Positions 9,446 to 64,000 of a stretch of DNA of 64,000 nt are shown here, piece by piece (within the stretch, counting starts at the first letter, position 1; the number at the start of each line of letters is the position of its first letter). The notes beneath the pieces are model-generated. The model made no database searches. It saw nothing but the letters and a program-made list of their open reading frames with translations, and had not been told where the DNA came from. This stretch comes from Gordius sp. MW1 (taxonomy: Eukaryota; Nematomorpha; Gordioida; Gordea; Gordiidae). Made by a program: the position numbers and the translations under genes. Where the stretch lies: NCBI GenBank assembly GCA_964036665.1, contig OZ038530.1, forward strand, positions 1,550,001 to 1,614,000. Reading direction: 5' to 3'.

Positions 9446-9564
9446 ATCTAAGCATTATTTACGTTGGAAGGACGGACGGTCACGGACGGTCACGGCTGGT
9501 CACGGACGGTCACGGATGGTCACGGATGGTCACGGATGGTCACGGATAGTCACGGATGGTCACC

Positions 9565-9725
9565 GACGGTAACGGACGGTCACGGAACGACACGGACGGA
9601 CACTGACGGACAGGGACGGACACAAGCGAGCCAATATATTGCAGAGCAATTAAAAAATAAATCATTTTGGCTTTAATTTGATATGTATCTAAGAATTATT
9701 TACGTTGGGCAGGACGGACGGACAC
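9565..9725 (+). repeat. Type-E monomer (ATATATTGCAGAGC linker, GGGCAGGACGG exit)
   Basis: A distinctive unit: GGTAACGGACGGTCACGGAA, then AGGGACGGACACAAGCGAG, a linker with ATATATTGCAGAGCAATT and AAATCATTTTGG, then TTGATATGTATCTAAG and GTTGGGCAGGACGG. It recurs near 13885, 16865, 18635, 20150, 27195, 30295, 33085, 36165, 38630, 40535, 44195, 46290, 48360, 50430 and 61035. This makes it a good landmark for the higher-order order of monomers. Confidence 0.85.
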
Positions 9726-9978
9726 GGACGGACAACGTACGGACAACAAAAAGCGAGCCCATAAATTGCATAGCAATTAAAAAATAAATAATTTGGCTTT
9801 AATTTGCTATCTAAGCATTATTTAGGTTGGAAGGACGGACGGTCACGGATCGTCACGGATCGTCATGGACGGACAACGGACGGACAACAAAAAGCGAGCC
9901 CATCATAGCAATTAAAAAATAAATAATTTGGCTTTAATTTGCTATCTAAGCATTATTTACGTTGGAAGGACGGACGGT

Positions 9979-10206
9979 CACGGATGGTCACGGATTGTCA
10001 CGGACGGTCACGTATGGTCACGGACGGTCACGGATGGTCACGGACGGTCACGGATGTTCACGGACGGTCACGGATGGTCACGGACGGTCACGGATGGTCA
10101 CGGACGGTCACGGATGGTCACGGACGGTCACGGATGGTCACGGATGGTCACGGACGGTCACGGAGGGTCACGGACAGTCACGGATGGTCACGGATGGTCA
10201 CGGACG
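9979..10206 (+). repeat. Representative decamer block with strict C/T alternation
   Basis: About 23 consecutive decamers of the form GGTCACGGAY. From about 10007 to 10130 the last base alternates C,T,C,T, so the working unit there is a 20-bp dimer. Single-base variants (for example GTTCACGG near 10054 and a CGTATGG near 10012) mark individual units and recur in homologous blocks elsewhere in the window. Confidence 0.9.
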
Positions 10207-10207
10207 G

Positions 10208-10305
10208 ACAACAAAAAGCGAGCCCATAAATTGCATAGCAATTAAAAAATAAATAATTTGGCTTTAATTTGCTATCTAAGCATTATTTACGTTGGAAGGA
10301 CGGAC
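10208..10305 (+). repeat. Representative linker with a perfect 15-bp palindrome
   Basis: The linker runs from ACAACAAAAAGCGAGCCCAT to TTACGTTGGAAGGACGGAC. At 10229-10243 is AATTGCATAGCAATT, a 6-bp inverted repeat around ATA. An A-rich run, ATTTGGCTTTAATTTGC, TATCTAAGCATTATTTACG and GTTGGAAGGACGG follow. Across the array the outer arms AATTGC and GCAATT are usually kept while the middle three bases vary (ATA, AGA, TAA). Confidence 0.9.
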
Positions 10306-11109
10306 GAATACGGACGGACACGGATGGTCACGGACGGTCACGGACGGTCACGGACTATCACGGACGGTCACGGACGGTCACGGATGGTCACGGACGGTCA
10401 CGGATGGTCACGGATGGTCACGGACTATCACGGATGGTCACGGACGGTCACGGATGGTCACGGACGGTCACGGACGGACACAGACGGACAATGGACGGAC
10501 AACAAAAAGCGAGACCCAAAAATTGCATAGCAATTAAAAAATAAATAATGTGGCTTTAATTTGCTATCTAAGCATTATTTACGTTGGAAGGACGGACGGA
10601 CAACGGACGGTCACGGATGTACACGGACGGACACGGACGGTCACGGACGGTTACGGATGGTCACGGACGGACAACGGACGGACAACAAAAAGCGAGACAC
10701 ATAAATTGCATAGCAATTAAAAAATAAATAATGTGGCTTTAATTTGCTATCTAAGCATTATTTACGTTGGAAGAACGGACGGACAACGAACGGTCACGGA
10801 CAGACACGGACGAACAACTGACGGACACGGACGCACAACGGACGGACAACAAAAAGCGAGCCCATAAATTGCATAGCAATTAAAAAAATAAATAATTTGG
10901 CTTTAATTTGATATCTATCTAAGCATTATTTACGTTGGAAGGACGGACGGACGGACAACCGACGGACACGGACTGTCACGGATGGTCACGGATCGTCACG
11001 GACGGTCACGGATGGTCACGGATGGTCACGGACGGTCACGGACGGACACGGACGGACACAGACGGTCACGGACGGACACGGACGGTCACGGACGGACACG
11101 GACGGACAC

Positions 11110-12376
11110 GGACGGACAACGGACGGACAACAAAAAGCGAGACCCAAAAATTGCATAGCAATTAAAAAATAAATAATTTGGCTTTAATTTGCTATCTAAG
11201 CATTATTTAGGTTGGAAGGACGGACGGACAACGGACGGTCACGGATGGACACGGACGGACACGGACGGACACGGACAGTCACGGACGGTCACGGACGGAC
11301 AACGGACGGACAATAAAAAGCGAGACACATAAATTGCATAGCAATTAAAAAATAAATAATTTGGCTTTAATTTGATATCTATCTAAGCATTATTTACGTT
11401 GGAAGGACGGACGGTCACGGATGGTCACGGATAGTCACGGACGGTCACGGACGGTCATCGATGGTCACGGATGGTCACGGACGGTCACGGCTGGTCACGG
11501 ACGGTCACGGATGGTCACGGACGGTCACGAATCGTCACGGACGGTTACGGATCGTCACGGACGGTCACGGATCATCACGGACGGTCATGGACTATCACGG
11601 ACTATCACGGATGGTCACGGACGGTCACGGATAGTCACGGATGGAACGGACGGTCACGGATGGTCACGGATGGTCACGGATGGTCACGGACGGACAACGG
11701 ACGGACAACAAAAAGCGAGCCCATAAATTGCATAGCAATTAAAAAATAAATAATTTGGCTTTAATTTGCTATCTAAGCATTATTTAGGTTGGAAGGACGG
11801 ACGGTCACGGATCGTCACGGACGGACAACGGACGGACAACAAAAAGCGAGCCCATAAATTGCATAGCAATTAAAAAATAAATAATTTGGCTTTAATTTGC
11901 TATCTAAGCATTATTTACGTTGGAAGGACGGACGGTCACGGATGGTCACGGATGGTCACGGATGGTCACGGATGGTCACGGATGGTCACGGATGGTCACG
12001 AACGGTCACGGACGGTCACGGACGGTCACGGATGGTCACGGACGGTCACGGATGGTCACGGACGGTCACGGATGGTCACGGATGGACAACAAAAAGCGAG
12101 CCCATAAATTGCATAGCAATTAAAAAATAAATAATTTGTCTTTAATTTGATATCCATCTAAGCATTATTTACGTTGGAAGGACGGACGGACAACGGACGG
12201 ACACGGACGGTCACGGATAGTCACGGACGGTCACGGATGGTCACGGATAGTCACGGATGGTCACGGAGGGTCACGGACGGTCACGGATAGTCACGGATGG
12301 TCACGTACGGTCACGGACGGTCACGGATGGTCACGGATGGACACGGATGGTCACGGACGGTCACGGATGGTCACGG
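11110..12376 (+). repeat. 1.43-kb duplication, copy 1
   Basis: The order and private variants of several monomers here recur 1434 bases downstream (for example the frames at 11421 and 11886 match 12855 and 13320). In the right part the offset becomes 1424 (12257 matches 13681), a one-decamer change. Borders are estimates from where the variants stop matching. Confidence 0.75.
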
Positions 12377-12543
12377 ACGGTCACGAATCGTCACGGACGG
12401 TTACGGATCGTCACGGACGGTCACGGATCGTCACGGACGGTCATGGACTATCACGGACTATCACGGATGGTCACGGACGGTCACGGATAGTCACGGATGG
12501 AACGGACGGTCACGGATGGTCACGGATGGTCACGGATGGTCAC

Positions 12544-13800
12544 GGACGGACAACGGACGGACAACAAAAAGCGAGACCCAAAAATTGCATAGCAATTAAA
12601 AAATAAATAATTTGGCTTTAATTTGCTATCTAAGCATTATTTAGGTTGGAAGGACGGACGGACAACGGACGGTCACGGATGGACACGGACGGACACGGAC
12701 GGACACGGACAGTCACGGACGGTCACGGACGGACAACGGACGGACAATAAAAAGCGAGACACATAAATTGCATAGCAATTAAAAAATAAATAATTTGGCT
12801 TTAATTTGATATCTATCTAAGCATTATTTACGTTGGAAGGACGGACGGTCACGGATGGTCACGGATAGTCACGGACGGTCACGGACGGTCATCGATGGTC
12901 ACGGATGGTCACGGACGGTCACGGCTGGTCACGGACGGTCACGGATCGTCACGGACGGTCACGAATCGTCACGGACGGTTACGGATCGTCACGGACGGTC
13001 ACGGATCGTCACGGACGGTCATGGACTATCACGGACTATCACGGATGGTCACGGACGGTCACGGATAGTCACGGATGGAACGGACGGTCACGGATGGTCA
13101 CGGATGGTCACGGATGGTCACGGACGGACAACGGACGGACAACAAAAAGCGAGCCCATAAATTGCATAGCAATTAAAAAATAAATAATTTGGCTTTAATT
13201 TGCTATCTAAGCATTATTTAGGTTGGAAGGACGGACGGTCACGGATCGTCACGGACGGACAACGGACGGACAACAAAAAGCGAGCCCATAAATTGCATAG
13301 CAATTAAAAAATAAATAATTTGGCTTTAATTTGCTATCTAAGCATTATTTACGTTGGAAGGACGGACGGTCACGGATGGTCACGGATGGTCACGGATGGT
13401 CACGGATGGTCACGGACGGTCACGGACGGTCACGGACGGTCACGGACGGTCACGGATGGTCACGGACGGTCACGGATGGTCACGGACGGTCACGGATGGT
13501 CACGGACGGACAACAAAAAGCGAGCCCATAAATTGCATAGCAATTAAAAAATAAATAATTTGTCTTTAATTTGATATCCATCTAAGCATTATTTACGTTG
13601 GAAGGACGGACGGACAACGGACGGACACGGACGGTCACGGATAGTCACGGACGGTCACGGATGGTCACGGATAGTCACGGATGGTCACGGAGGGTCACGG
13701 ACGGTCACGGATAGTCACGGATGGTCACGTACGGTCACGGACGGTCACGGATGGTCACGGATGGACACGGATGGTCACGGACGGTCACGGATGGTCACGG
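12544..13800 (+). repeat. 1.43-kb duplication, copy 2
   Basis: Matches 11110-12376. Small differences include base changes in single decamers (for example a GGATGGTC versus GGATCGTC unit near 11510/12945) and one decamer fewer by the right half. Confidence 0.75.
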
Positions 13801-15120
13801 ACAGTCACGGACGGTCACGGATGGTCACGGATGGTCACGGATGGTCACGGATGGTCACGGATGGTCACGGATAGTCACGGATGGTCACGGACGGTAACGG
13901 ACGGTCACGGAACGACATGGACGGACACGGACGGACAGGGACGGACACAAGCGAGCCCATATATTGCAGAGCAATTAAAAAATAAATCATTTTGGCTTTA
14001 ATTTGATATGTATCTAAGCATTTTTTACGTTGGGCAGGACGGACGGACACGGACGGACAACGTACGGACAACAAAAAGCGAGCCCATAAATTGCATAGCA
14101 ATTAAAAAATAAATAATTTGGCTTTAATTTGCTATCTAAGCATTATTTAGGTTGGAAGGACGGACGGTCACGGATCGTCACGGACGGACAACGGACGGAC
14201 AACAAAAAGCGAGCCCATAAATTGCATAGCAATTAAAAAATAAATAATTTGGCTTTAATTTGCTATCTAAGCATTATTTACGTTGGAAGGACGGACGGTC
14301 ACGGATGGTCACGGATTGTCACGGACGGTCACGGATGGTCACGGACGGTTACGGACGGTCACGGACGGTCACGGATGGTCATGGACGGTCACGGATGGTC
14401 ACGGACGGTCACGGATGGTCACGGATGGTCACGGACGGACAACAAAAAGCGAGCCCATAAATTGCATAGCAATTAAAAAATAAATGATTTATCTTTAATT
14501 TGCTATCTAAGCATTATTTACGTTGGAAGGACGGACGGACACGGACGGACACGGGACACGGACGGTCACGAATGGTCACGGATGGTCACGGACGGTCACG
14601 GATGGTCACGGATGGTCACGGACGGTCACGGACGGTCACGGATGGTCACGGACGGTCACGGACGGTCACGGATGGTCACGGATGGTCACGGACTCACAAC
14701 GGACGGACAACAAAAAGCAAGACCCAAAAATTGCATAGCAATTAAAAAATAAATAATTTGGCTTTAATTTGATATCTATCTAAGCATTATTTACGTTGGG
14801 CAGGACGGACGGACACGGACAAACAACGGACGGTCACGGATGGACACGGACGGACACGGACGGTCACGGAGGGTTACGGATGGTCACGGACGGACAACGG
14901 ACGGACAACAAAAAGCGAGACACATAAATTGCATAGCAATTAAAAAATAAATAATGTGGCTTTAATTTGCTATCTAAGCATTATTTACGTTGGAAGGACG
15001 GACGGACAACGGACGGTCACGGACAGACACGGACGGACAACTGACGGACACGGACGCACAACGGACGGACAACAAAAATCGAGCCCATAAATTGCAGAGC
15101 AATTAAAAAAATAAATAATT

Positions 15121-15215
15121 TGGCTTTAATTTGATATCTATCTAAGCATTATTTAACGGACAACAAAAAGCGAGACACATAAATTGCATAGCAATTAAAA
15201 AATAAATAGTGTGGC
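15121..15215 (+). repeat. Monomer with no decamer block ('null' monomer)
   Basis: Here the linker ...TAAGCATTATTTA runs directly into ACGGACAACAAAAAGCG of the next linker, with no decamers between. The following linker carries AAATAGTGTGG. The same junction recurs near 25379, 28541, 34427, 39765, 47535, 51675, 54347, 56854, 59367 and 62275. A shared deletion of this sort marks homologous positions in the higher-order repeats. Confidence 0.85.
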
Positions 15216-18200
15216 TTTAATTTGCTATCTAAGCATTATTTACGTTAGAAGGACGGACGGACAACGGACGGTCACGGATGGACACAGACGGTCACGGATA
15301 GTCACGGATTACCACGGACGGTCACGGATGCTCACGGACGGTCACGGACGGTCACGGACGGTCACGGACGGTCACGGATGGTCACGGACGGACAACGGAT
15401 GGACAACAAAAAGCTAGCCCATAAATTGCATAGCAATTAAAAAATAAATAATGTGGCTTTAATTTGCTATCTAAGCATTATTTACGTTGGAAGGACGGAC
15501 GGACAACGGACGGTCACGGATGTACACGGACGGACACGGACGGTCACGGAGGGTTACGGATGGTCACGGACGGACAACGGACGGACAACAAAAAGCGAGA
15601 CACATAAATTGCATAGCAATTAAAAAATAAATAATGTGGCTTTAATTTGCTATCTAAGCATTATTTACGTTGGAAGGACGGACGGACAACGGATGGTCAT
15701 GGACAGACACGGACGGACAACTGACGGACACGGACGCACAACGGACGGACAACAAAAAGCGAGCCCATAAATTGAGTAGTAATAAAAAAAATAAAAAATT
15801 TGGCTTTAATTTGATATCTATCTAAGCATTATTTACGTTGGAAGGACGGACGGACAACGGACGGACTCGGACCGTCACGGATCGTCACGGACGGTCACGG
15901 ATGGTCACGGATGGTCACGGACGGACACGGACGGACACGAACGGTCACGGACGGTCACGGACGGACACGGACGGACATGGACGGTCACGGACGGTCACGG
16001 ACGGACAACGGACGGACAACGGACGGACAACAAAAAGCGAGACCCAAAAATTGCATAGCAATTAAAAAATAAATAATTTGGCTTTAATTTGCTATCTAAG
16101 CATTATTCAGTTGGAAGGACGGACGGACAACGGACAGTCACGGATGGACACGGACGGACACGGACGGACTCGGATGGTCACGGACGGACAACGGACGGAC
16201 AATAAAAAACGAGACACATAAATTGCATAGCAATTAAAAAATAAATAATTTGGCTTATTTGATATCTATCTAAGCATTATTTACGTTGGAAGGACGGACG
16301 GTCACGGACGGTCACGGATGGTCACGGACGGACAACGGACGGACAACAAAAAGCGAGCCCATAAATTGCATAGCAATTAAAAAATAAATAATTTGGCTTT
16401 AATTTAATATCTATCTAAGCATTATTTACGTTGGAAGGACGGACGGACAACGGACGGACACGGATAGTCACGGACGATCACGGATGGTCACGGACGGTCA
16501 CGGACGGACAACGGACGGACAACAAAAAGCGAGACACACAAATTGCATAGCAATTAAAAAATAAATAGTGTGGCTTTAATTTGCTATCTAAGCATTATTT
16601 ACGTTGGAAGGACGGACGGACAACGGACGGACACGGACCGTCACGAATGGTCACGGATCGTCACGGACGGTTAGGATGGTCACGGATGGTCACGGACGGT
16701 CACGGCTGGTCACGGACGGTCACGGATGGTCACGGATGGTCACGGACGGTCAAGGATGGTCACGGATGGTCACGGATAGTCACGGATGGTCACGGATGGT
16801 CACGGATGGTCACGGATGGTCACGGATGGTCACGGATGGTCACGGATAGTCACGGATGGTCACGGACGGTAACGGACAATCACGGAACGACACGGACGGA
16901 CACTGACGGACAGGGACGGACACAAGCGAGCCCATATATTGCAGAGCAATTAAAAAATAAATCGTTTTGGCTTTAATTTGATATGTATCTAAGCATTATT
17001 TACGTTGGGCAGGACGGACGGACACGGACGGCAACGTACGGACAACAAAAAGCGAGCCCATAAATTGCATAGCAATTAAAAAATAAATAATTTGGCTTTA
17101 ATTTGCTATCTAAGCATTATTTACGTTGGAAGGACGGACGGTCACGGATGGTCACGGATTGTCACGGACGGTCACGTATGACGGTCACGGATGGTCACGG
17201 ACGGTCACGGATGGTCACGGACGGTCACGGATGGTCACGGACGGTAACGGACGGTCACGGACAGTCACGGATGGTCACGGATGGTCACGGACGGTCACGG
17301 ATAGCCACGGACGGTCACGGATGGTCACAGACGGACAACAAAAAGCGAGCCCATAAATTGCATAGCAATTAAAAAATAAATAATTCGGCTTTAATTTGCT
17401 AACTAAGCATTATTTACGTTGGAAGGACGGACGAACACGGACGGACACGGATGGTCACGGACGGTCACGGATGGTCACGGACGGTCACGGATGGTCACGG
17501 ACGGTCACGGATGGTCACGGATGGTCACGGACTATCACGGACGGTCACGGACGGTCACGGACGGTCACGGATGGTCACGGACGGTCACGGATGGTCACGG
17601 ATGGTCACGGACTATCACGGATGGTCACGGACGGTCACGGACGGTCACGGACGGTCACTGATGGTCACGGACGGTCACGGATGGTCACAGACGGTCACGG
17701 ACGGACACGGACGGACACGGACGGTCACGGACGGTCACGGATGGACACGGACGGACACGGACGGACAACGGACGGACAATAAAAAGCGAGACCCAAAAAT
17801 TGCATAGCAATTAAAAAATAAATAATTTGGCTTTAATTTGCTATCTAAGCATTATTTACGTTGGAAGGACGGACGGACAACGGACGGTCACGGATGGACA
17901 CGGACGGACACGGACGGACACGGACGGTCACCGATGGTCACGGACGGACAACGGACGGACAATAAAAAGCGAGACACATAAATTGCATAGCAATTAAAAA
18001 ATAAATAATTTGGCTTTAATTTGATATCTATCTAAGCATTATTTACGTTGGAAGGACGGACGGACAACGGACGGTCACGGATGTTCACGGATAGTCACGG
18101 ATGGTCACGGACGGTCACGGATGGTCACGGACGGTCACGGACGGTCACGGACGGTCACGGAGGGTCACGGACGGACAACGGATGGACAACAAAAAACGAG

Positions 18201-21200
18201 CCCATAAATTGCATAGCAATTAAAAAATAAATAATGTGGCTTTAATTTGCTATCTAAGCATTATTTACGTTGGAAGAAAGGACGGACAACGAACGGTCAC
18301 GGACAGACACGGACGAACAACTGACGGACACGGACGCACAACGGACGGACAACAAAAAGCGAGCCCATAAATTGCATAGCAATTAAAAAAATAAATAATT
18401 TGGCTTTAATTTGATATCTATCTAAGCATTATTTACGTTGGAAGGACGGACGGACAACGGACGGACACGGACCGTCACGGATGGTCACGGATCGTCACGG
18501 ACGGTTACGGATGGTCACGGATGGTCACGGACGGACACGGACAGACACGGACGGTCACGGATGATCACGGACGGTCACGGATGGTCACGGATGGTCACGG
18601 ATGGTCACGGATAGTCACGGATGGTCACGGACGGTAACGGACGGTCACGGAACGACACGGACGGACACTGACGGACAGGGACGGACACAAGCGAGCCCAT
18701 ATATTGCAGAGCAATTAAAAAATAAATCATTTTGGCTTTAATTTGATATGTATCTAAGCAATATTTACGTTGGGCAGGACGGACGGACACGGACGGACAA
18801 CGTACGGACAACAAAAAGCGAGTCCATAAATTGCATAGCAATTAAAAAATAAATAATTTGGCTTTAATTTGCTATCTAAGCATTATTTTGGTTGGAAGGA
18901 CGGACGGTCACGGATCGTCACGGATCGTCACGGACGGACAACGGACGGACAACAAAAAGCGAGCCCATAAATTGCATAGCAATTAAAAAATAAATAATTT
19001 GGTTTTAATTTGCTATCTAAGCATTATTTACGTTAGAAGGACGGACGGTCACGGATGGTCACGGATTATCACGGACGGTCACGTATGATCACGGACGGTC
19101 ACGGATGGTCACGGACGGTCACGGATGGTCACGGATGGTCACGGACGGTCACGGATGGTCACGGACGGTCACGGATGGTCACGGACGGTCACGGAGGGTC
19201 ACGGATGGTCACGGACGGACAACGGACGGACAACAAACACGGACGGTCACGGACGGACACGGACGGACAACGGACGGACAACAAAAAGCGAGACCCAAAA
19301 ATTGCATAGCAATTAAAAAATAAAGAATTTGGCTTTAATTTGATATCTATCTAAGCATTATTTACGTTGGAAGGACGGACGGACAACGGACGGTCACGGA
19401 TGTTCACGGATAGTCACGGATGGTCACGGACGGTCACGGATGGTCACGGACGGACAACGGATGGACAACAAAAAGAGAGCCCATAAATTGCATAGCAATT
19501 AAAAAATAAATAATGTGGCTTTAATTTGCTATCTAAGCATTATTTACGTTGGAAGGACGGACGGACAACGGATGGTCACGGATGTACACGGACGGACACG
19601 GACGGTCACGGACGGTTACGGATGGTCACGGACGGACAACGGACGGACAACAAAAAGCGAGACACATAAATTGCATAGCAATTAAAAAATAAATAATGTG
19701 GCTTTAATTTGCTATCTAAGCATTATTTACGTTGGAAGAACGGACGGACAACGAACGGTCACGGACAGACACGGACGAACAACTGACGGACACGGACGCT
19801 CAACGGACGGACAACAAAAAGCGAGACCCAAAAATAGCATAGCAATTAAAAAATAAATAATTTGGCTTTAATTTGCTATCTAAGCATTATTTACGTTGGA
19901 AGGACGGACGGACAACGGACGGACACGGATAGTCACGGATGGTCACGGATGGTCACGGACGGTCACGGATGGTCACGGACTGTCACGGAAGGTCACGGAT
20001 GGACACGGACGGTCACGGATGGTCACGGAAGGTCACGGATGGTCACGGATGGTCACGGACGGTCACGGATGGTCACGGACGGTCACGGATGGTCACGGAC
20101 GGTCACGGATGGTCACGGATGGTCACGGATAGTCACGGATGGTCACGGACGGTAACGGAACGACACGGACGGACAGGGACGGACACAAGCGAGCCCATAT
20201 ATTGCAGAGCAATTAAAAAAAAAATCATTTTGGCTTTAATTTGATATGTATCTAAGCATTATTTACGTTAGGCAGAACGGACGGAGACGGACGGACAACG
20301 TACGGACAACATAAAGCGAGCCCATAAATTGCATAGCAATTAAAAAATAAATAATTTGGCTTTAATTTGCTATCTAAGCATTATTTACGTTGGAAGGACG
20401 GACGGTCACGGATGGTCACGGATTGTCACGGACGGTCACGGATGGTCACGGACGGTCACGGACGATCACGGACGGTCACGGATGGTCACGGACGGTCACG
20501 GATGGTCACGGATGGTCACGGTAGGACAACAAAAAGCGAGCCCATAAATTGAAAAGCAATTAAAAAATAAATAATTTGGCTTTAATTTGCTATCTAAGCA
20601 TTATTTACGTTGGAAGGACGGACGGACACGGGACACGGACGGTCACGAATGGTCACGGACGGTCACGGATGGTCACGGATGGTCACGGATGGTCACGGAC
20701 TATCACGGATGGTCACGGATGGTCACGGACGGTCACGGACGGTCACGGATGGTCACGGACGGTCACGGATGGTCACGGATGGTCACGGACGGACAACGGA
20801 CGGACAACAAAAAGCAAGACCCAAAAATTGCATAGCAATTAAAAAATAAATAATTTGGCTTTAATTTGATATCTATCTAAGCATTATTTACGTTGGGCAG
20901 GACTGACGGACACGGACAAACAACGGACGGTCACGGATGGACACGGACGGACACGGACGGTCACGGAGGGTTACGGATGGTCACGGACGGACAGCGGACG
21001 GATAACAAAAAGCGAGACACATAAATTGCTAAGCAATTAAAAAATAAATAATTTGGCTTTAATTTGCTATCTAAGCATTATTTACGTTGGAAGGACGGAC
21101 GGACAACGGACGGACACGGATAGTCACGGATGGTCACGGACGGTCACGGATAGTCACGGATGGTCACGGATGGTCACGGATGGACACGGACGGTCACGGA

Positions 21201-21534
21201 CGGTCACGGACGGTCACGGATGGTCACGGACGGTCACGGATGGTCACGGATGGTCACGGACGGACAACGGACGGACAACAAAAAGCAAGACCCAAAAATT
21301 GCATAGCAATTAAAAAATAAATAATGTGGCTTTAATTTGATATCTATCTAAGCATTATTTACGTTGGGCAGGACTGACGGACACGGACAAACAACGGACG
21401 GTCACGGATGGACACGGATAGAAACGGACGGTCACGGAGGGTTACGGATGGTCACGGACGGACAGCGGACGGATAACAAAAAGCGAGACACATAAATTGC
21501 TAAGCAATTAAATACTCGGGCCTTCGGCCCTCGT

Positions 21535-21602
21535 GGGAAGGGGGAGAAGGGAAGGGGAGTAGGGGAAGGGAAGAGGGGAAGGGAAGAGGGGAAGGGGGAA
21601 CT
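21535..21602 (+). repeat. Long G/A-only tract
   Basis: An almost pure purine run made of GGGAAGGG and GGGGAAGG phrases, with one or two T interruptions. Its complement is the C/T-rich tract at about 7540-7590 in the left arm. Such tracts can adopt triplex structures and are prone to length change; that property is known generally and is not shown here. Confidence 0.7.
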
Positions 21603-22690: not shown

Positions 22691-22699
22691 ATAAATTTT

Positions 22700-24060: not shown

Positions 24061-24096
24061 ATAATTTAACAAATCTTATATATAACCATTATATAG

Positions 24097-50800: not shown

Positions 50801-52000
50801 ATTATTTACGTTGGAAGGACGGACGGTCACGGATGGTCACGGATAGTCACGGACGGTCACGGATGGTCACGGACGGTCATGGACGGTCACGGACGGTCAC
50901 GGACGGTCACGGATGGTCACGGACGGTCACGGATGGTCACGGATGGTCACGGTAGGACAACAAAAAGCGAGCCCATAAATTGCATAGCAATTAAAAAATA
51001 AATAATTTGGCTTTAATTTGCTATCTAAGCATTATTTACGTTGGAAGGACGGACGGACACGGGACACGGACGGTCACGAATGGTCACGGACGGTCACGGA
51101 TGGTCACGGATTGTCACGGACTATCACGGATGGTCACGGACGGTCACGGACGCTCACGGATGGTCACGGACGGTCACGGACGGTCACGGATGGTCACGGA
51201 CGGTCACAGATGGTCACGGATGGTCACGGACGGACAACGGACGGACAACAAAAAGCAAGACCCAAAAATTGCATAGCAATTAAAAAATAAATAATTTGGC
51301 TTTAATTTGATATCTATCTAAGCATTATTTACGTTTGGCAGGACGGACGGACACGGACAAACAACGGACGGTCACGGATGGACACGGACGGACACGGACG
51401 GTCACGGAGGGTTACGGATGGTCACGGACGGACAACGGACGGACAACAAAAAGCGAGACACATAAATTGCATAGCAATTAAAAAATAAATAATGTGGCTT
51501 TAATTTGCTATCTAAGCATTATTTACGTTGGAAGGACGGACGGACAACGGACGGTCACGGACAGACACGGACGGACAACTGACGGACACGGACGCACAAC
51601 GGACGGACAACAAAAAGCGAGCCCATAAATAAAATAAATAATTTGGCTTTAATTTGATATCTATCTAAGCATTATTTAACGGACAACAAAAAGCGAGACA
51701 CATAAATTGCATAGCAATTAAAAAATAAATAGTGTGGCTTTAATTTGCTATCTAAGCATTATTTACGTTATAAGGACGGACGGACAACGGACGGTCACGG
51801 ACGGACACGGACGGTCACGGACGGACAACAAAAAGCGAGCCCATAAATTGAGTAGCAATTAAAAAAATTAAAAATTTGGCTTTAATTTGATATCTATCTA
51901 AGCATTATTTACGTTGGAAGGACGGACGGACAACGGACGGACACGGATGGTCACGGATCGTCACGGACGGTCACGGATGGTCACGGATGGTCACGGACGG
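47861..52000 (+). repeat. 4.15-kb tandem duplication, copy 2
   Basis: Directly follows copy 1. Its 49043-49560 part matches 42623-43140 (offset 6420) without the 30-base difference, so the shorter block is found at two places and the longer one in copy 1 is likely the expanded state. Confidence 0.9.
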
Positions 52001-54164
52001 TCACGGACGGACACGGACGGACACGGACGGACACGGACGGTCACGAACGGTCACGAACGGTCACGGACGGTCACGGACGGTCACGGACGGACAACGGACG
52101 GACAACAAAAAGCGAGACACATAAATTGCATAGCAATTAAAAAATAAATAATTTGGCTTTAATTTGATATCTATCTAAGCATTATTTACGTTAGAAGGAC
52201 GGACGGACAACGGACGGACACGGATGGTCACGGACGGTCACGGACGGTCACGGATGGTCACGGATGGTCACGGACGGTCACGGATGGTCACGGACTATCA
52301 CGGATGGTCACGGACGGTCACGGATGGTCACGGACGGTCACGGACGGTCACGGATAGTCACGGACGGTCACGGATGGTCACGGACGGTCACGGATGGTCA
52401 CGGATGGTCACGGACGGACAACGGACCCACATCAAAAAGCGAGCCCATAAATTGCATATCAATTAAAAAATAATTAATTTGGCTTTAATTTGCTATCTAA
52501 GCATTATTTACGTTGGAAGGACCGACGGTCACGGATCGTCACGGACGGACAACGGACGGACAACAAAAAGCGAGCCCATAAATTGCATAGCAATTAAAAA
52601 ATAAATAGTTTGGCTTTAATTTGCTATCTAAGCATTATTTACGGACGGTCACGGAAGGTCCTGGACGGTCACAGATGGTCACGGATGGTCACGGACGGAC
52701 AACGAACGGACAACAAAAAGCGAGACACATAAATTGCATAGCAATTAAAAAATAAATAATTTGGCTTTAATTTGATATCTATCTAAGCATTATTTACGTT
52801 GGAAGGACGGACGGACAACGGACGGACACGGACGGTCACAGATGGTCACGGATGGTCACGGATGGTCACGGATGGTCACGGACGGTGACGGATGGTCACG
52901 GACGGTCACGGATGGTCACGGACGGACAACGGATGGACAACAAAAAGCGAGCCCATAAATTGCATAGCAATTAAAAAATAAATAATGTGGCTTTAATTTG
53001 CTATCTAAGCATTATTTACGTTGAAAGAACGGACGGACAACGAACGGTCACGGACAGACACGGACGAACAACTGACGGACACGGACGCACAACGGACGGA
53101 CAACAAAAAGCGAGCCCATAAATTGCATAGCAATTAAAAAATGAATAATTTGGCTTTAATTAAGCATTATTTAGGTTGGAAGGACGGAATGTCACGGATC
53201 GTCACTGATCGTCACGGACGGACAACGAACGGACAACAAAAAGCGAGCCCATAAATTGCATAGCAATTAAAAAATAAATAATTTGGCTTTAATTTGCTAT
53301 CTAAGCATTATTTACGTTGGAAGGACGGACGGTCACGGATGGTCACGGATTGTCACGGACGGTCACGTATGGTCACGGATGGTCACGGACGGTCACGGAT
53401 GGTCACGGACGGTCACGGATAGTCACGGACGGTCACGGATAGTCACGGGCGGTCACGGACGGTCACGGATGGTCACGGACGGTCACGGATGGTCACGGAT
53501 GGTCACGGACGGTTACGGATGGCACGGTACGGTCACGGATGGTCACGGATGGTCACGGACGGACAACAAAAAGCGAGCCCATAAATTGCATAGCAATTAA
53601 AAAATATTCGGCTTTAATTTGCTATCTAAGCATTATTTACGTTGGAAGGACGGACAAACACGGACGGACACGGATGGTCAGGGACGGTCACGGATGGTCA
53701 CGGACGGTCACAGATGGTCACGGACGGTCACAGATGGTCACGGACGGTCACGGACTATCACGGATGGTCACGGACGGTCACGGACGGTCACGGACGGTCA
53801 CGGATGGTCACGGATGGTCACGGACTATCACGGATGGTCACGGACGGTCACGGACGGTCACGGATGGTCACGGACGGTCACGGACGGACACGGACGGTCA
53901 CGGACGGACACGGACGGACAACGGACGGACAAAAAAAGCGAGACCCAAAAAATAAATAATTTGGCTTTAATTTGCTATCTAAGCATTATTTACGTTGGAA
54001 GGACAGACGGACAACGGACGGTCACGGATGGACACGGATGGACACGGACGGACACGGACGGTCACGGATGGTCACGGACGGACAACGGACGGACAATAAA
54101 AAGCGAGACACATAAATTGCATAGCAATTAAAAAAATAAATAATTTGGCTTTAATTTGATATCT

Positions 54165-56671
54165 ATCTAAGCATTATTTACGTTGGAAGGACGGACGGAC
54201 AACGGACGGTCACGGACAGACACGGACGGACAACTGACGGACACGGACGCACAACGGACGGACAACAAAAAGCGAGCCCATAAATTGCAGAGCAATTAAA
54301 AAAATAAATAATTTGGCTTTAATTTGATATCTATCTAAGCATTATTTAACGGACAACAAAAAGCGAGACACATAAATTGCATAGCAATTAAAAAATAAAT
54401 AGTGTGGCTTTAATTTGCTATCTAAGCATTATTTACGTTGGAAGGACGGACGGACAACGGACGGTGACGGACGGACACGGACGGTCACGGACGGACAACA
54501 AAAAGCGAGCCCATAAATTGAGTAGCAATTAAAAAAATTAAAAATTTGGCTTTAATTTGATATCTATTTAAGTATTATTTACGTTGGAAGGACGGACGGA
54601 CAACGGACGGACACGGACCGTCACGGATGGTCACGGACGGTCACGGATGGTCACGGATGGTCACGGACGGTCACGGACGGACACGGACGGACACGAACGG
54701 TCACGGACGGTCACGGACGGACACGGACGGACACGGACGGTCACGGACGGTCACGGACGGACAACGGACGGACAACGGACGGACAACAAAAAGCGAGATC
54801 CAAAAATTGCATAGCAATTAAAAAATAAATAATTTGGCTTTAATTTGCTATCTAAGCATTATTTACGTTGGAAGGACGGACGGACAACAGACGGTCACGG
54901 ACAGACACGGACGGACAACTGACGGACACGGACGCACAACTGATGGACAACAAAAAGCGAGACCCAAAAATTGCTAAGCAATTAAAAAATAAATAATTTG
55001 GCTTTAATTTGCTATCTAAGCATTATTTACGTTGGAAGGACGGACGGACAACGGACGGACACGGATAGTCACGGATGGTCACGGATGGTCACGGACGGTC
55101 ACGGACGGTCACGGATAGTCACGGATGGTCACGGACGGTCACGGACGGACAACGGACGGACAACAAAAAGCGAGACCCAAAAAATAAATAATTTGGCTTT
55201 AATTTGCTATCTAAGCATTATTTACGTTGGAAGGACAGACGGACAACGGAAGGTCACGGATGGACACGGATGGACACGAACGGACACGGACGGTCACGGA
55301 TGGTCACGGACGGACAACCGACGGACAATAAAAAGCGAGACACATAAATTGCATAGCAATTAAAAAAATAAATAATTTGGCTTTAATTTGATATCTATCT
55401 AAGCATTATTTACGTTGGAAGGACGGACGGACAACGGACGGTCACGGATGTTCACGGATAGTCACGGATGGTCACGGACGGTCACGGATGGTCACGGACG
55501 GTCACGGACGGTCACGGACGGTCACGGATGGTCACGGACGGACAACGGATGGACAACAAAAAGCGAGCCCATAAATTGCATAACAATTAAAAAATAAATA
55601 ATGTGGCTTTAATTTGCTATCTAAGCATTATTTACGTTGGAAGGACGGACGGACAACGGACGGTCACGGATGGACACGGACGGACACGGACGGTCACGGA
55701 AGGTTACGGATGGTCACGGACGGACAACGGACGGACAACAAAAAGCGAGACACATAAATTGCATAGCAATTAAAAAATAAATAATGTGGCTTTAATTTGC
55801 TATCTAAGCATTATTTACGTTGGAAGAACGGACGGACAACGAACGGTCACGGACAGACACGGACGAACAACTGACGGACACGGACGCACAACGGACGGAC
55901 AACAAAAAGCGAGCCCATAAATTGCATAGCAATTAAAAAATAAATAATTTGGCTTTAATTTGCTATCTAAGCATTATTTACGTTGGAAGGACGGACGGTC
56001 ACGGATGGTCACGGATAGTCACGGACGGTCACGGATGGTCACGGACGGTCATGGACGGTCACGGACGGTCACGGACGGTCACGGATGGTCACGGACGGTC
56101 ACGGATGGTCACGGATGGTCACGGTAGGACAACAAAAAGCGAGCCCATAAATTGCATAGCAATTAAAAAATAAGTAATTTGGCTTTAATTTGCTATCTAA
56201 GCATTATTTACGTTGGAAGGACGGACGGACACGGGACACGGACGGTCACGAATGGTCACGGACGGTCACGGATGGTCACGGATTGTCACGGACTATCACG
56301 GATGGTCACGGACGGTCACGGACGCTCACGGATGGTCACGGACGGTCACGGACGGTCACGGATGGTCACGGACGGTCACAGATGGTCACGGATGGTCACG
56401 GACGGACAACGGACGGACAACAAAAAGCAAGACCCAAAAATTGCATAGCAATTAAAAAATAAATAATTTGGCTTTAATTTGATATCTATCTAAGCATTAT
56501 TTACGTTGGGCAGGACGGACGGACACGGACAAACAACGGACGGTCACGGATGGACACGGACGGTCACGGAGCTTTACGGATAGTCACGGACGGACAACGG
56601 ACGGACAACAAAAAGCGAGACACATAAATTGCATAGCAATTAAAAAATAAATAATGTGGCTTTAATTTGCT
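54165..56671 (+). repeat. 2.51-kb tandem repeat, copy 1
   Basis: Landmarks match copy 2 at a constant offset of 2507 (54584 to 57091, 54998 to 57505, 55415 to 57922, 55949 to 58456). Differences seen are single bases, such as GGAAGGTC versus GGACGGTC near 55250/57757. Confidence 0.9.
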
Positions 56672-59180
56672 ATCTAAGCATTATTTACGTTGGAAGGACG
56701 GACGGACAACGGACGGTCACGGACAGACACGGACGGACAACTGACGGACACTGACGCACAACGGACGGACAACAAAAAGCGAGCCCATAAATTGCAGAGC
56801 AATTAAAAAAATAAATAATTTGGCTTTAATTTGATATCTATCTAAGCATTATTTAACGGACAACAAAAAGCGAGACACATAAATTGCATAGCAATTAAAA
56901 AATAAATAGTGTGGCTTTAATTTGCTATCTAAGCATTATTTACGTTGGAAGGACGGACGGACAACGGACGGTGACGGACGGACACGGACGGTCACGGACG
57001 GACAACAAAAAGCGAGCCCATAAATTGAGTAGCAATTAAAAAAATTAAAAATTTGGCTTTAATTTGATATCTATTTAAGTATTATTTACGTTGGAAGGAC
57101 GGACGGACAACGGACGGACACGGACCGTCACGGATGGTCACGGACGGTCACGGATGGTCACGGATGGTCACGGACGGTCACGGACGGACACGGACGGACA
57201 CGAACGGTCACGGACGGTCACGGACGGACACGGACGGACACGGACGGTCACGGACGGTCATGGACGGACAACGGACGGACAACGGACGGACAACAAAAAG
57301 CGAGATCCAAAAATTGCATAGCAATTAAAAAATAAATAATTTGGCTTTAATTTGCTATCTAAGCATTATTTACGTTGGAAGGACGGACGGACAACAGACG
57401 GTCACGGACAGACACGGACGGACAACTGACGGACACGGACGCACAACTGATGGACAACAAAAAGCGAGACCCAAAAATTGCTAAGCAATTAAAAAATAAA
57501 TAATTTGGCTTTAATTTGCTATCTAAGCATTATTTACGTTGGAAGGACGGACGGACAACGGACGGACACGGATAGTCACGGATGGTCACGGATGGTCACG
57601 GACGGTCACGGACGGTCACGGATAGTCACGGATGGTCACGGACGGTCACGGACGGACAACGGACGGACAACAAAAAGCGAGACCCAAAAAATAAATAATT
57701 TGGCTTTAATTTGCTATCTAAGCATTATTTACGTTGGAAGGACAGACGGACAACGGACGGTCACGGATGGACACGGATGGACACGAACGGACACGGACGG
57801 TCACGGATGGTCACGGACGGACAACCGACGGACAATAAAAAGCGAGACACATAAATTGCATAGCAATTAAAAAAATAAATAATTTGGCTTTAATTTGATA
57901 TCTATCTAAGCATTATTTACGTTGGAAGGACGGACGGACAACGGACGGTCACGGATGTTCACGGATAGTCACGGATGGTCACGGACGGTCACGGATGGTC
58001 ACGGACGGTCACGGACGGTCACGGACGGTCACGGATGGTCACGGACGGACAACGGATGGACAACAAAAAGCGAGCCCATAAATTGCATAACAATTAAAAA
58101 ATAAATAATGTGGCTTTAATTTGCTATCTAAGCATTATTTACGTTGGAAGGACGGACGGACAACGGACGGTCACGGATGGACACGGACGGACACGGACGG
58201 TCACGGAAGGTTACGGATGGTCACGGACGGACAACGGACGGACAACAAAAAGCGAGACACATAAATTGCATAGCAATTAAAAAATAAATAATGTGGCTTT
58301 AATTTGCTATCTAAGCATTATTTACGTTGGAAGAACGGACGGACAACGAACGGTCACGGACAGACACGGACGAACAACTGACGGACACGGACGCACAACG
58401 GACGGACAACAAAAAGCGAGCCCATAAATTGCATAGCAATTAAAAAATAAATAATTTGGCTTTAATTTGCTATCTAAGCATTATTTACGTTGGAAGGACG
58501 GACGGTCACGGATGGTCACGGATAGTCACGGACGGTCACGGATGGTCACGGACGGTCATGGACGGTCACGGACGGTCACGGACGGTCACGGATGGTCACG
58601 GACGGTCACGGATGGTCACGGATGGTCACGGTAGGACAACAAAAAGCGAGCCCATAAATTGCATAGCAATTAAAAAATAAATAATTTGGCTTTAATTTGC
58701 TATCTAAGCATTATTTACGTTGGAAGGACGGACGGACACGGGACACGGACGGTCACGAATGGTCACGGACGGTCACGGATGGTCACGGATTGTCACGGAC
58801 TATCACGGATGGTCACGGATGGTCACGGACGGTCACGGACGCTCACGGATGGTCACGGACGGTCACGGACGGTCACGGATGGTCACGGACGGTCACAGAT
58901 GGTCACGGATGGTCACGGACGGACAACGGACGGACAACAAAAAGCAAGACCCAAAAATTGCATAGCAATTAAAAAATAAATAATTTGGCTTTAATTTGAT
59001 ATCTATCTAAGCATTATTTACGTTGGGCAGGACGGACGGACACGGACAAACAACGGACGGTCACGGATGGACACGGACGGTCACGGAGCTTTACGGATGG
59101 TCACGGACGGACAACGGACGGACAACAAAAAGCGAGACACATAAATTGCATAGCAATTAAAAAATAAATAATGTGGCTTT
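56672..59180 (+). repeat. 2.51-kb tandem repeat, copy 2
   Basis: Matches copy 1. Near 58812 it has one decamer more than copy 1 (GGATGGTCAC repeated), which shifts the offset to the third copy to 2516. Confidence 0.9.
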
Positions 59181-60740
59181 AATTTGCTATCTAAGCATTA
59201 TTTACGTTGGAAGGACGGACGGACAACGGAGGTCACGGACAGACACGGACGGGCAACTGACGGACACGGACGCACAACGGACGGACAACAAAAAGCGAGC
59301 CCATAAATTGCAGAGCAATTAAAAAAATAAATAATTTGGCTTTAATTTGATATCTATCTAAGCATTATTTAACGGACAACAAAAAGCGAGACACATAAAT
59401 TGCATAGCAATTAAAAAATAAATAGTGTGGCTTTAATTTGCTATCTAAGCATTATTTACGTTGGAAGGACGGACGGACAACGGACGGTGACGGACGGACA
59501 CGGACGGTAACGGACGGACAACAAAAAGCGAGCCCATAAATTGAGTAGCAATTAAAAAAATTAAAAATTTGGCTTTAATTTGATATCTATTTAAGTATTA
59601 TTTACGTTGGAAGGACGGACGGACAACGGACGGACACGGACCGTCACGGATGGTCACGGACGGTCACGGATGGTCACGGATGGTCACGGACGGTCACGGA
59701 CGGGCACGGACGGACACGAACGGTCACGGACGGTCACGGACGGACACGGACGGACACGGACGGACACGGACGGTCACGGACGGTCACGGACGGACAACGG
59801 ACGGACAACGGACGGACAACAAAAAGCGAGATCCAAAAATTGCATATCAATTAAAAAATAAATAATTTGGCTTTAATTTGCTATCTAAGCATTATTTACG
59901 TTGGAAGGACGGACGGACAACGGACGGTCACGGATGGACACGGACGGACACGGACGGTCACGGAAGGTTACGGATGGTCACGGACGGACAACGGACGGAC
60001 AACAAAAAGCGAGACACATAAATTGCATAGCAATTAAAAAATAAATAATGTGGCTTTAATTTGCTATCTAAGCATTATTTACGTTGGAAGAACGGACGGA
60101 CAACGAACGGTCACGGACAGACACGGACGAACAACTGACGGACACGGACGCACAACGGACGGACAACAAAAAGCGAGCCCATAAATTGCATAGCAATTAA
60201 AAAATAAATAATTTGGCTTTAATTTGCTATCTAAGCATTATTTACGTTGGAAGGACGGACGGTCACGGATGGTCACGGATAGTCACGGACGGTCACGGAT
60301 GGTCACGGACGGTCATGGACGGTCACGGACGGTCACGGACGGTCACGGATGGTCACGGACGGTCACGGATGGTCACGGATGGTCACGGTAGGACAACAAA
60401 AAGCGAGCCCATAAATTGCATAGCAATTAAAAAATAAATAATTTGGCTTTAATTTGCTATCTAAGCATTATTTACGTTGGAAGGACGGACGGACACGGGA
60501 CACGGACGGTCACGAATGGTCACGGACGGTCACGGATGGTCACGGATTGTCACGGACTATCACGGATAGTCACGGACGGTCACGGACGCTCACGGATGGT
60601 CACGGACGGTCACGGACGGTCACGGACGGTCACGGATGGTCACGGACGGTCACAGATGGTCACGGATGGTCACGGACGGACAACGGACGGACAACAAAAA
60701 GCAAGACCCAAAAATTGCATAGCAATTAAAAAATAAATAA
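59181..60740 (+). repeat. 2.51-kb tandem repeat, third copy with a 0.76-kb internal deletion
   Basis: The first part matches copy 2 at an offset of about 2516 (57091 to 59607). From about 59900 the offset drops to 1757 (58456 to 60213), so about 759 bases equivalent to roughly 57380-58135 are missing. The break falls in a shared linker/exit phrase, as expected for unequal recombination between linkers. Confidence 0.8.
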
Positions 60741-63700
60741 TTTGGCTTTAATTTGCTATCTAAGCATTATTTACGTTGGAAGGACGGACGGACAACGGAC
60801 GGACACGGATAGTCACGGATGGTCACGGACGGTCACGGATAGTCACGGATGGTCACGGACTGTCACGGAAGGTCACGGATGGTCACGGATGGACACGGAC
60901 GGTCACGGATGGTCACGGAAGGTCACGGATGGTCACGGATGGTCACGGATGGTCACGGACGGTCACGGATGGTCACGGACGGTCACGGATGGTCACGGAT
61001 AGTCACGGATGGTCACGGACGGTAACGGACGGTCACGGAACGACACGGACGGACACGGACGGACTGGGACGGACACAAGCGAGCCAATATATTGCAGAGC
61101 AATTAAAAAATAAATCATTTTATCTTTAATTTGATATGTATCTAAGCATTATTTACGTTGGGCAGGACGGACGGACACGGACGGACAACGTACGGACAAC
61201 ATAAAGCGAGCCCATAAATTGCATAGCAATTAAAAAATAATTAATTTGGCTTTAATTTGCTATCTAAGCATTATTTAGGTTGGAAGGACGGACGGTCACG
61301 GATCGTCACGGACGGACAACGGACGGACAACAAAAAGCGAGCCCATAAATTGCATAGCAATTAAAAAATAAATAATTTGGCTTTAATTTGCTATCTAAGC
61401 ATTATTTACGTTGGAAGGACGGACGGTCACGGATGGTCACGGATAGTCACGGACGGTCACGGATGGTCACGGACGGTCATGGACGGTCACGGACGGTCAC
61501 GGACGGTCACGGATGGTCACGGACGGTCACGGATGGTCACGGATGGTCACGGTAGGACAACAAAAAGCGAGCCCATAAATTGCATAGCAATTAAAAAATA
61601 AATAATTTGGCTTTAATTTGCTATCTAAGCATTATTTACGTTGGAAGGACGGACGGACACGGGACACGGACGGTCACGAATGGTCACGGACGGTCACGGA
61701 TGGTCACGGATTGTCACGGACTATCACGGATGGTCACGGACGGTCACGGACGCTCACGGATGGTCACGGACGGTCACGGACGGTCACGGATGGTCACGGA
61801 CGGTCACAGATGGTCACGGATGGTCACGGACGGACAACGGACGGACAACAAAAAGCAAGACCCAAAAATTGCATAGCAATTAAAAAATAAATAATTTGGC
61901 TTTAATTTGATATCTATCTAAGCATTATTTACGTTTGGCAGGACGGACGGACACGGACAAACAACGGACGGTCACGGATGGACACGGACGGACACGGACG
62001 GTCACGGAGGGTTACGGATGGTCACGGACGGACAACGGACGGACAACAAAAAGCGAGACACATAAATTGCATAGCAATTAAAAAATAAATAATGTGGCTT
62101 TAATTTGCTATCTAAGCATTATTTACGTTGGAAGGACGGACGGACAACGGACGGTCACGGACAGACACGGACGGACAACTGACGGACACGGACGCACAAC
62201 GGACGGACAACAAAAAGCGAGCCCATAAATAAAATAAATAATTTGGCTTTAATTTGATATCTATCTAAGCATTATTTAACGGACAACAAAAAGCGAGACA
62301 CATAAATTGCATAGCAATTAAAAAATAAATAGTGTGGCTTTAATTTGCTATCTAAGCATTATTTACGTTATAAGGACGGACGGACAACGGACGGTCACGG
62401 ACGGACACGGACGGTCACGGACGGACAACAAAAAGCGAGCCCATAAATTGAGTAGCAATTAAAAAAATTAAAAATTTGGCTTTAATTTGATATCTATCTA
62501 AGCATTATTTACGTTGGAAGGACGGACGGACAACGGACGGACACGGATGGTCACGGATCGTCACGGACGGTCACGGATGGTCACGGATGGTCACGGACGG
62601 TCACGGACGGACACGGACGGACACGGACGGACACGGACGGTCACGAACGGTCACGAACGGTCACGGACGGTCACGGACGGTCACGGACGGACAACGGACG
62701 GACAACAAAAAGCGAGACACATAAATTGCATAGCAATTAAAAAATAAATAATTTGGCTTTAATTTGATATCTATCTAAGCATTATTTACGTTAGAAGGAC
62801 GGACGGACAACGGACGGACACGGATGGTCACGGACGGTCACGGACGGTCACGGATGGTCACGGATGGTCACGGACGGTCACGGATGGTCACGGACTATCA
62901 CGGATGGTCACGGACGGTCACGGATGGTCACGGACGGTCACGGACGGTCACGGATAGTCACGGACGGTCACGGATGGTCACGGACGGTCACGGATGGTCA
63001 CGGATGGTCACGGACGGACAACGGACCCACATCAAAAAGCGAGCCCATAAATTGCATATCAATTAAAAAATAATTAATTTGGCTTTAATTTGCTATCTAA
63101 GCATTATTTACGTTGGAAGGACCGACGGTCACGGATCGTCACGGACGGACAACGGACGGACAACAAAAAGCGAGCCCATAAATTGCATAGCAATTAAAAA
63201 ATAAATAGTTTGGCTTTAATTTGCTATCTAAGCATTATTTACGGACGGTCACGGAAGGTCCTGGACGGTCACAGATGGTCACGGATGGTCACGGACGGAC
63301 AACGAACGGACAACAAAAAGCGAGACACATAAATTGCATAGCAATTAAAAAATAAATAATTTGGCTTTAATTTGATATCTATCTAAGCATTATTTACGTT
63401 GGAAGGACGGACGGACAACGGACGGACACGGACGGTCACAGATGGTCACGGATGGTCACGGATGGTCACGGATGGTCACGGACGGTGACGGATGGTCACG
63501 GACGGTCACGGATGGTCACGGACGGACAACGGATGGACAACAAAAAGCGAGCCCATAAATTGCATAGCAATTAAAAAATAAATAATGTGGCTTTAATTTG
63601 CTATCTAAGCATTATTTACGTTGAAAGAACGGACGGACAACGAACGGTCACGGACAGACACGGACGAACAACTGACGGACACGGACGCACAACGGACGGA

Positions 63701-64000
63701 CAACAAAAAGCGAGCCCATAAATTGCATAGCAATTAAAAAATGAATAATTTGGCTTTAATTAAGCATTATTTAGGTTGGAAGGACGGAATGTCACGGATC
63801 GTCACTGATCGTCACGGACGGACAACGAACGGACAACAAAAAGCGAGCCCATAAATTGCATAGCAATTAAAAAATAAATAATTTGGCTTTAATTTGCTAT
63901 CTAAGCATTATTTACGTTGGAAGGACGGACGGTCACGGATGGTCACGGATTGTCACGGACGGTCACGTATGGTCACGGATGGTCACGGACGGTCACGGAT
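60706..64000 (+). repeat. 10.6-kb higher-order repeat, second copy (cut by window end)
   Basis: Equivalent to 50110-53400 at a constant offset of 10600 with no visible insertion or deletion over 3.3 kb, so this is among the most recent events in the window. Confidence 0.9.

Follow-up and report, generated by a model that had tools for sequence, protein, structure and literature searches.

The 64,000-nucleotide stretch of the Gordius sp. MW1 genome analysed here (the window; assembly GCA_964036665.1, 211.8 Mb in 12 contigs; contig OZ038530.1, further referred to as C4, C4:1550001-1614000) is occupied, from position 9446 to its right edge, by a composite satellite, in which GC-rich blocks of 10-bp units alternate with AT-rich linkers of approximately 95 bp. 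This array is probably (with a probability of about 0.78) a satellite of the heterochromatin type that arose from the 5' terminal module of a non-autonomous Helentron-like (HINE/DINE-1-like) transposable element (TE) dispersed in the same genome. Its blocks are best read as a grown Helentron microsatellite, since the module, the GTCC run and the termini of the dispersed element match the anatomy of HINE/DINE-1 elements.

Structure and extent of the composite array

A hidden Markov model (HMM) of the linker (model length 95 bp) detected 245 linkers in the window, all of them (245/245) on the + strand. The array starts exactly at 9446, where it opens inside a partial linker (model position 65); an example of a complete linker is located at 9746..9839 (+). 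The linkers were nearly constant in length (model positions 1-85: median 86 bp, standard deviation 4.3; 243/245 of full length), whereas the 243 blocks measured (the 2,769-bp gap at the single insert was left out) varied from 1 to 386 bp (median 97 bp, coefficient of variation 0.65). The GC content of the blocks was 0.63 vs 0.27 for the linkers. The blocks matched themselves at 0.73 at lag 10 and at 0.71 at lag 20, their main 10-bp units being ACGGACGGTC, ACGGACGGAC and ACGGATGGTC. Chance matches were excluded by reversed patterns: the 39-bp linker core (≤3 mismatches) was found at 1,829 places genome-wide vs 0 for its reversed form, and a 40-bp decamer probe at 9,473 vs 0.

An insert at 21513-24324 divides the array into a left segment (9446..21512, +), also covered by a Tandem Repeats Finder (TRF) run on the window (150 of 441 rows viewed), and a right segment (24325..64000, +), which runs past the window. 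These findings confirm what an earlier note on this DNA had claimed about the alternation of the two parts, their opposite base composition, the near-constant linker and a length of at least 51.8 kb (51,743 bp were measured in the window without the insert). The array is also open-ended, as had been stated, and continues in adjoining C4 sequence. The postulated single array from 9446 to 64000 was correct in its extent, but is not continuous, since a transposon breaks it once. The linker had also been called palindromic, which applies to a 15-bp hyphenated palindrome (AATTGC-ATA-GCAATT), but not to the linker as a whole, whose folding was barely above chance (DNA z -1.43; 20/200 shuffles folded equally well or better). 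A strong hairpin of the entire linker was thereby ruled out as a driver of the array.

The long head-to-tail arrangement, mainly at defined chromosomal sites, is typical of a satellite. However, there is no monomer of near-fixed length, because a near-constant linker is combined with a block of 1-386 bp. Changes by whole units within the blocks (described below) are a trait of minisatellites (variable number tandem repeats), yet here the blocks are split by linkers.

Twenty adjoining 10-kb pieces were added to the window, which yielded a joined sequence of 264 kb, containing 863 linkers on the + strand and 32 on the - strand (HMM). Array 1 reaches joined coordinate ~116,400 (C4 ~1.666 Mb) and includes an inverted stretch (C4 ~1.632-1.642 Mb) plus some non-array pieces. 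Approximately 30 kb of mostly other DNA separates it from array 2, which extends from joined 146,850 (C4 ~1.697 Mb) to 256,413, with one linker-poor block stretch inside it and another after it. The 39-bp core was present at 914 + 915 places on the two strands (482 and 513 exact matches, respectively), and 695/1,829 of these lie within the window and the added 200 kb. Among the matches listed, all are located on C4 (first ~1.9 Mb) except one on C8. The latter site (C8:35297600-35298200, locus L072) is a lone composite unit within dispersed element-type repeats of ~107 bp.

A dispersed HINE-like element and its terminal module

In reverse complement, the ~35 bp on the left side of the linker (consensus AACAAAAAGCGAGCCCATAAATTGCATAGCAATTAA) correspond to the 5' terminal module of a dispersed HINE-like element. 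The match extends across the boundary, since this part of the linker together with the preceding block end (CGGACGGACAACAAAAA[A/G]CGAGCCCATAAATTGCATAGCAATTAA) also makes up the end of the element. A 33-bp piece of the module, AAAAAACGAGCCCATAAATTGCATAGCAATTAA, was found exactly at 1,130 + 1,161 = 2,291 places genome-wide (control 0/0); the 100 of these that were listed range along C1 from 0.13 to 6.94 Mb. A neighbouring motif, AACCTAATATACCCAATGCAAATAGATAGGG, was detected at 1,605 + 1,609 = 3,214 places (≤3 mismatches; control 0/0). Motif and module are joined by a variable CGGAC-type run of 13-121 bp (35 pairs on C1, read by eye). When the motif sites within the sequence analysed were examined (n=7), the module was present behind such a run in 5/7 cases, and absent within 200 bp in 2/7. 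The DNA past the module was unrelated flank at 4/5 sites; the fifth is the element within the array, where the sequence continues as linker DNA.

Viewed from the opposite strand, the element opens with TT-AATTGC-TAT-GCAATT-TATGGGCTCG, followed by a T-rich stretch, (GTCC)n and CCCTATCTATTTGCATTGGG. The order of its parts is thus (i) a TT and the 5' subterminal inverted repeat (subTIR; TTGCTATGCAATTTATGGGC), (ii) the GTCC run and (iii) central repeats. The 3' subTIR (GCCCATAAATTGCATAGCAA) is the exact reverse complement of the 5' subTIR, with mismatches in single copies, and the 3' end carries a hairpin (GGGCCGAAGGCCC) followed by a terminal GAGTA or GAGTT. Hairpins of this type were found at 7 sites in the 264 kb (≤3 mismatches), 5 nt from the presumed end. 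The palindrome AATTGC-TAT-GCAATT was present in all three elements located (in one with a mismatch), and a GTCC/CGGAC-type run behind the 5' end in five sequenced copies. Both termini were located for elements at joined coordinates 117245-119178 and 120177-121670.

Termini were also located for the insert of the array (21513..24324, - strand), a 2.8-kb HINE-like element inside a linker. It contains the 3' hairpin end (21513-21532), a 3' subTIR (near 21654), central tandem repeats of ~107 bp and ~58 bp, also seen by TRF, a GTCC-type run and the 5' end (24324). On the element strand it is flanked by ATTTATTTTT (left, before AATTGC) and TTTAATTGC (right, after GAGTA). Removal of the TT-starting element restores the six-T run of the linker consensus (by eye, n=1), with the T-run leaving the boundary ambiguous. 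This single case, with its ambiguous boundary, would be compatible with entry into a T-run without target duplication.

Another HINE-like element (about 6170-7672 of locus L026) interrupts a hAT-family transposase gene (L026:5183-8448; Dimer_Tnp_hAT, E 1.1e-22; zf-BED below its cut-off). A stretch inside this element (about 6830-6970) encodes APSP.PQVNKEEGASKKYEV and is also present in the mitochondrial contig C12, which may reflect a shared or captured fragment. The mitochondrial contig (locus L053) carries a tandem repeat region in front of cox1 (about 3690-4005) and reads open under the invertebrate code; ARAGORN, run with the bacterial code, found no tRNA in it.

Two scales of change within the array

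Small-scale changes were analyzed in 13 of the 16 chains of recent duplicates (three were left out as redundant or overlapping). The 13 duplicate pairs (53,214 bp aligned, of which blocks make up 60%) differed by 40 substitutions, 27 of which lie in blocks and 13 in linkers, and by 24 indels. Among the block indels (n=21), 18 were 10, 20 or 30 bp long and the remaining three 1, 2 and 11 bp, while the linker indels (n=3) were all of 1 bp, none being a multiple of 10. These data support slippage by whole 10-bp units within the blocks, as had been suggested in the earlier note.

Large-scale change takes the form of near-perfect copied segments of 2.5-10.6 kb, each with many linkers and blocks. 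With a period of 5,887, segment 26159..31989 (+) matches segment 32046..37856 (+) except for one 20-bp block indel. The segment with a period of 4,169 (43671..47868, +) has a second copy at 47840-52007 (2 substitutions, 20- and 10-bp block indels), and that with a period of 10,600 (50104..60755, +) a second copy at 60704-71355, past the window (a single substitution over 10,652 bp). Of the 54,555 bp in 9446-64000, 45,666 are covered by exact repeats of ≥100 bp. Block length had been thought to vary freely, but 135/243 blocks belong to series of five lengths that recur (1,000 shuffles: mean 0.1, maximum 12); block lengths recur in order because multi-kb segments were duplicated.

The second process proposed earlier, recombination between linkers, was not borne out. 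The mean distance between linkers was flat (0.097-0.101) when pairs were sorted by separation into seven classes (up to 250 kb), with identical pairs accounting for 1.9-3.3% below 10 kb vs 1.2-1.3% beyond 30 kb. The junction intervals of the duplications (n=8) were placed wholly in a linker (one, period 10,600), mostly in a linker (one, 5,102), wholly in a block (one, 4,169), almost wholly in a block (one, 5,887) or spanned both (four). Since multi-kb units were copied, linker distances are flat and the junctions fall in linkers and blocks alike, the data do not support amplification by exchange between single linkers. The idea of two processes acting at once therefore holds for the two scales, namely slippage and segmental copying, but not for the exchange between single linkers.

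The left flank of array 1 (1..9445) has a second copy 137.4 kb downstream, where it precedes array 2 (alignment of 9,465 columns: 99.3% identity, 24 mismatches, 8 gap openings). Despite these near-identical flanks, the block order of the two arrays diverges after the first two blocks. An exact copy within array 1 was found for 242/393 array-1 units, and in array 2 for only 32/393. The nearest relative of a linker (n=852) was in its own array in 375 cases, tied in 439 and in the other array in 38. Near-identical copies of the region thus already bear arrays differing in length and order, which appears to reflect very fast copying.

Proposed origin of the satellite

The founder piece would have comprised the palindrome AATTGC-TAT-GCAATT, GGGCTCG, the T run and the (GTCC)n microsatellite, plus ~50 bp of adjoining AT-rich DNA. 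A single insertion may have given rise to a tandem duplication, perhaps when its GTCC run recombined with a CCGTCC-like stretch close by. This run would then have matured into 10-bp units and would still be gaining and losing 10 bp at a time through replication slippage. Segments of 2.5-10.6 kb, multiplied by unequal exchange or by a replication-based mechanism, would presumably amplify the array and turn it over. The product most likely neither codes for anything nor has a role that depends on its sequence.

Several points weigh against this scenario. A search of 54,612 non-array bases for the source of the right ~50 bp of the linker gave nothing above a chance-level match, which leaves the founding event hypothetical. 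The assignment of the source element to the non-autonomous Helentron-like (HINE/DINE-1-like) class is putative and was made by its anatomy. The anatomy itself deviates from that of mite HINEs, in which the 3' subTIR lies 38-60 bp and the hairpin 8-35 bp from the end (PMC4067079): in the Gordius element, the distance to the 3' end is ~100-120 bp for the 3' subTIR and, closer than in mites, 5 nt for the hairpin. It is worth mentioning that the subTIR distance is given for mite families and not as a general rule. The independent indel events are fewer than the 24 counted, since the duplicate pairs partly overlap and some chains are copies of each other (a 10-bp event was counted in two copies). 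Finally, assembly errors are possible in such DNA, and the lack of function is presumed.

Mirror symmetry of C4

The first 1.87 Mb of C4 (0-1.87 Mb) display a large mirror symmetry centred at ~0.93 Mb. A 1.5-kb flank probe matched C4 at 1551900(+), 299067(-), 1689303(+) and 178248(-), in addition to a 91% copy on C1, and a second probe (L028:1-1500) matched at 1684001(+), 183533(-), 1546593(+) and 304373(-). Both mirror coordinate sums (1,852,466 and 1,869,033) are common to both landmarks, whose mirror copies are nearly identical in sequence. The landmarks are therefore collinear and the interval with array 1 differs by 16,567 bp, being shorter on the - arm than on the + arm. We infer that this difference is located in the array itself. 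The - arm array was represented only by the 3-kb loci L001-L020, used for counts. The + arm contained two copies of a marker of the 5.9-kb segment and the - arm one, while the one-mismatch variant of this marker was found once and three times, respectively; for the 10.6-kb segment, two exact copies and two variants were found in the + arm, and three variants only in the - arm.

The first 3,000 bases of C4 (L044) consist of an array of 11-bp GTCCGTCCGTT units with a second linker type, without a telomere. This second composite array was also detected at C4 ~1.834 Mb (L055). Its linker carries GAGTTCGAATCCCGGAGAG, which by eye is tRNA B-box-like, and also a piece resembling the central repeats of the element. 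The marker of the second array was found at 159 + 81 = 240 places, and the 100 of these that were listed are at C4 0-43 kb, at 67.7-70.6 kb and once at 1.909 Mb. In the centre of the mirror (C4 0.90-0.95 Mb, 11 points of 60 bp), nine points contained 11-bp arrays (one with the second linker) and two AT-rich DNA, with TTAGGG at none of these 11 points. The 11-bp arrays resemble those at the end of C8 (L073) and the start of C9 (L049), which are of the same kind. Contig C9 ends in TTAGGG (L071), and it may be the missing end of C8. For the mirror at ~0.93 Mb we tentatively favour misjoined haplotypes over a true inverted duplication; both predict such a picture.

Alternative explanations

The direction of descent could be the reverse, with the satellite coming first and the dispersed elements capturing its linker and block end. 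The lone composite unit on C8 (35.298 Mb) agrees with this in that units do occur outside the array. However, the elements are delimited, with the module forming one end and an exact inverse subTIR at the opposite end, and the listed array places are confined to the first ~1.9 Mb of C4 and one site on C8, whereas the listed module places are spread along C1; we regard this order of events as quite improbable. Another, distinctly unlikely, reading is that the array is a footprint of Helentron rolling-circle replication, i.e. that a circle or over-run replicon, carrying upstream flank and the 5' module, was laid down head-to-tail, that units are still travelling (as might be seen in the lone C8 unit among element-type repeats and the element inserted in a linker), and that the ~1.87-Mb mirror is a real palindromic short arm. 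If true, the terminal microsatellite of a transposon would be able to seed a chromosome-scale satellite. It could also be that repeat copy number and segmental copies have been inflated by misassembly or by the retention of both haplotypes. The satellite without a telomere at the start of C4, the mirrored landmarks and the near-equal linker counts per strand (914/915 with ≤3 mismatches, 482/513 exact) point in this direction. The mirrored copies nevertheless differ within the array by their markers, as alleles or paralogues would, and the 264 kb contain no N and have the same structure. An artefact, which we consider unlikely, could account for the mirror and perhaps some large duplications, but not for the satellite itself.

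A role of the array as a functional centromere or a telomere substitute would be in line with its location near one end of C4, beside other satellites, and with the lack of TTAGGG at the C4 start. It is very improbable, since a different, AT-rich satellite, a better centromere candidate than the composite array, was found at 8/9 points sampled in C4 1.94-3.0 Mb (L058-L066; 2.60 Mb differs), and TTAGGG-type repeats are present at 6/9 starts of C1-C9 (not C4, C7, C9) and 3/4 sampled ends (C4, C7, C9; not C8). The latter indicates that the genome has ordinary telomeres. The chance that the blocks encode a repetitive protein is negligible, despite consensus decamers free of stops in the + frames and many open reading frames (ORFs) of 80-170 aa overlapping the array. 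Many of these ORFs terminate in or near a linker, though some pass through one, and the single array frame tested had no Pfam match. The open frames are explained by the absence of stops in the 10-bp unit, and a protein-coding array was ruled out.

Other features of the region

An acrocentric nucleolus organiser with ribosomal DNA (rDNA) was also rejected, as an 18S probe (≤3 mismatches) matched one place only (C6:6728025); the rDNA arrays are probably collapsed in the assembly. No Rfam match at the gathering threshold was obtained for window positions 1-26000. The left flank contains, at 1873-3358, broken exons of a gene with shifting frames and, by eye, cysteine-rich and transmembrane stretches. 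The gene may be anosmin-like; the pieces tested gave no Pfam match. The region is present in four copies on C4, with a 91% copy on C1.

Comparison with known systems

The hallmarks of HINE/DINE-1 elements include a GTCY/GTCC microsatellite behind the 5' end and TT insertion (PMC7492417, PMC4067079). The closest counterpart is Cg_HINE of Crassostrea gigas, which likewise has a 5' subTIR with an inverted repeat, a GTCY/GTCC microsatellite, central tandem repeats, a 3' subTIR with a palindrome, a T-rich/TT target and tandem repeats tied to satellites (PMC7492417). In Cg_HINE, however, it is the central repeats that form arrays, which are short and dispersed, whereas in Gordius the 5' end and the microsatellite form an array of more than 50 kb in the window and more than 100 kb beyond it. 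The DINE-1/HINE elements of Drosophila and mites share the subTIR near the 5' end (palindromic in mites), the 3' stem-loop, TT insertion and a short microsatellite, but the accessible part of PMC4067079 describes no satellite arising from the microsatellite module, and in the Gordius element the 3' subTIR is farther from the end and the hairpin nearer. In Lepidoptera, miniature inverted-repeat transposable elements (MITEs) with hitchhiking (GTCY)n microsatellites (Coates et al. 2011, cited in PMC9659126 and PMC4067079) also carry and spread such a repeat, but as dispersed microsatellites, not as a composite mega-array.

Among composite satellites, the TE-derived monomers of the "transposon graveyards" review (PMC12628747) similarly join a TE piece with other DNA, and internal TE repeats expand; no two-part monomer with a minisatellite half of free length is described in the corresponding part of that review. 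The higher-order repeats of human alpha satellite (the subject of PMC11062924) are alike in that multi-monomer segments are amplified and arrays vary between haplotypes, but the monomer length of the Gordius array is not fixed and a layer of slippage is added inside every unit. The macro-dyad satellites of Tribolium madens (PMC13081366) are also arranged in inverted halves, with dyads of ≤75 kb, in contrast to ~1.87 Mb on C4, which includes other DNA and is possibly an assembly join.

Satellites of Helentrons (PMC7492417), composite TE satellites (PMC12628747) and MITE-borne (GTCY)n (PMC9659126) have thus already been described. In the accessible parts of the literature on composite, Helitron and higher-order satellites and on GTCY microsatellites, we found no satellite made of a 5' module and a matured GTCC block, which is not proof of absence, and none of the titles listed for the decamer or palindrome strings concerned such a satellite. 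Judged against the literature searched, a satellite built from the terminal microsatellite module of a Helentron is new. The spreading of tandem repeats by Helentrons is known, and the examples consulted involve the central repeats, whereas in Gordius a satellite appears to have developed from the terminal palindrome and the GTCC microsatellite, so that the source element and the mega-array can be compared in one genome. Moreover, since the arrays differ in arrangement while their flanks are nearly identical, slippage and segmental copying can be dated independently of each other, which satellites usually make difficult.

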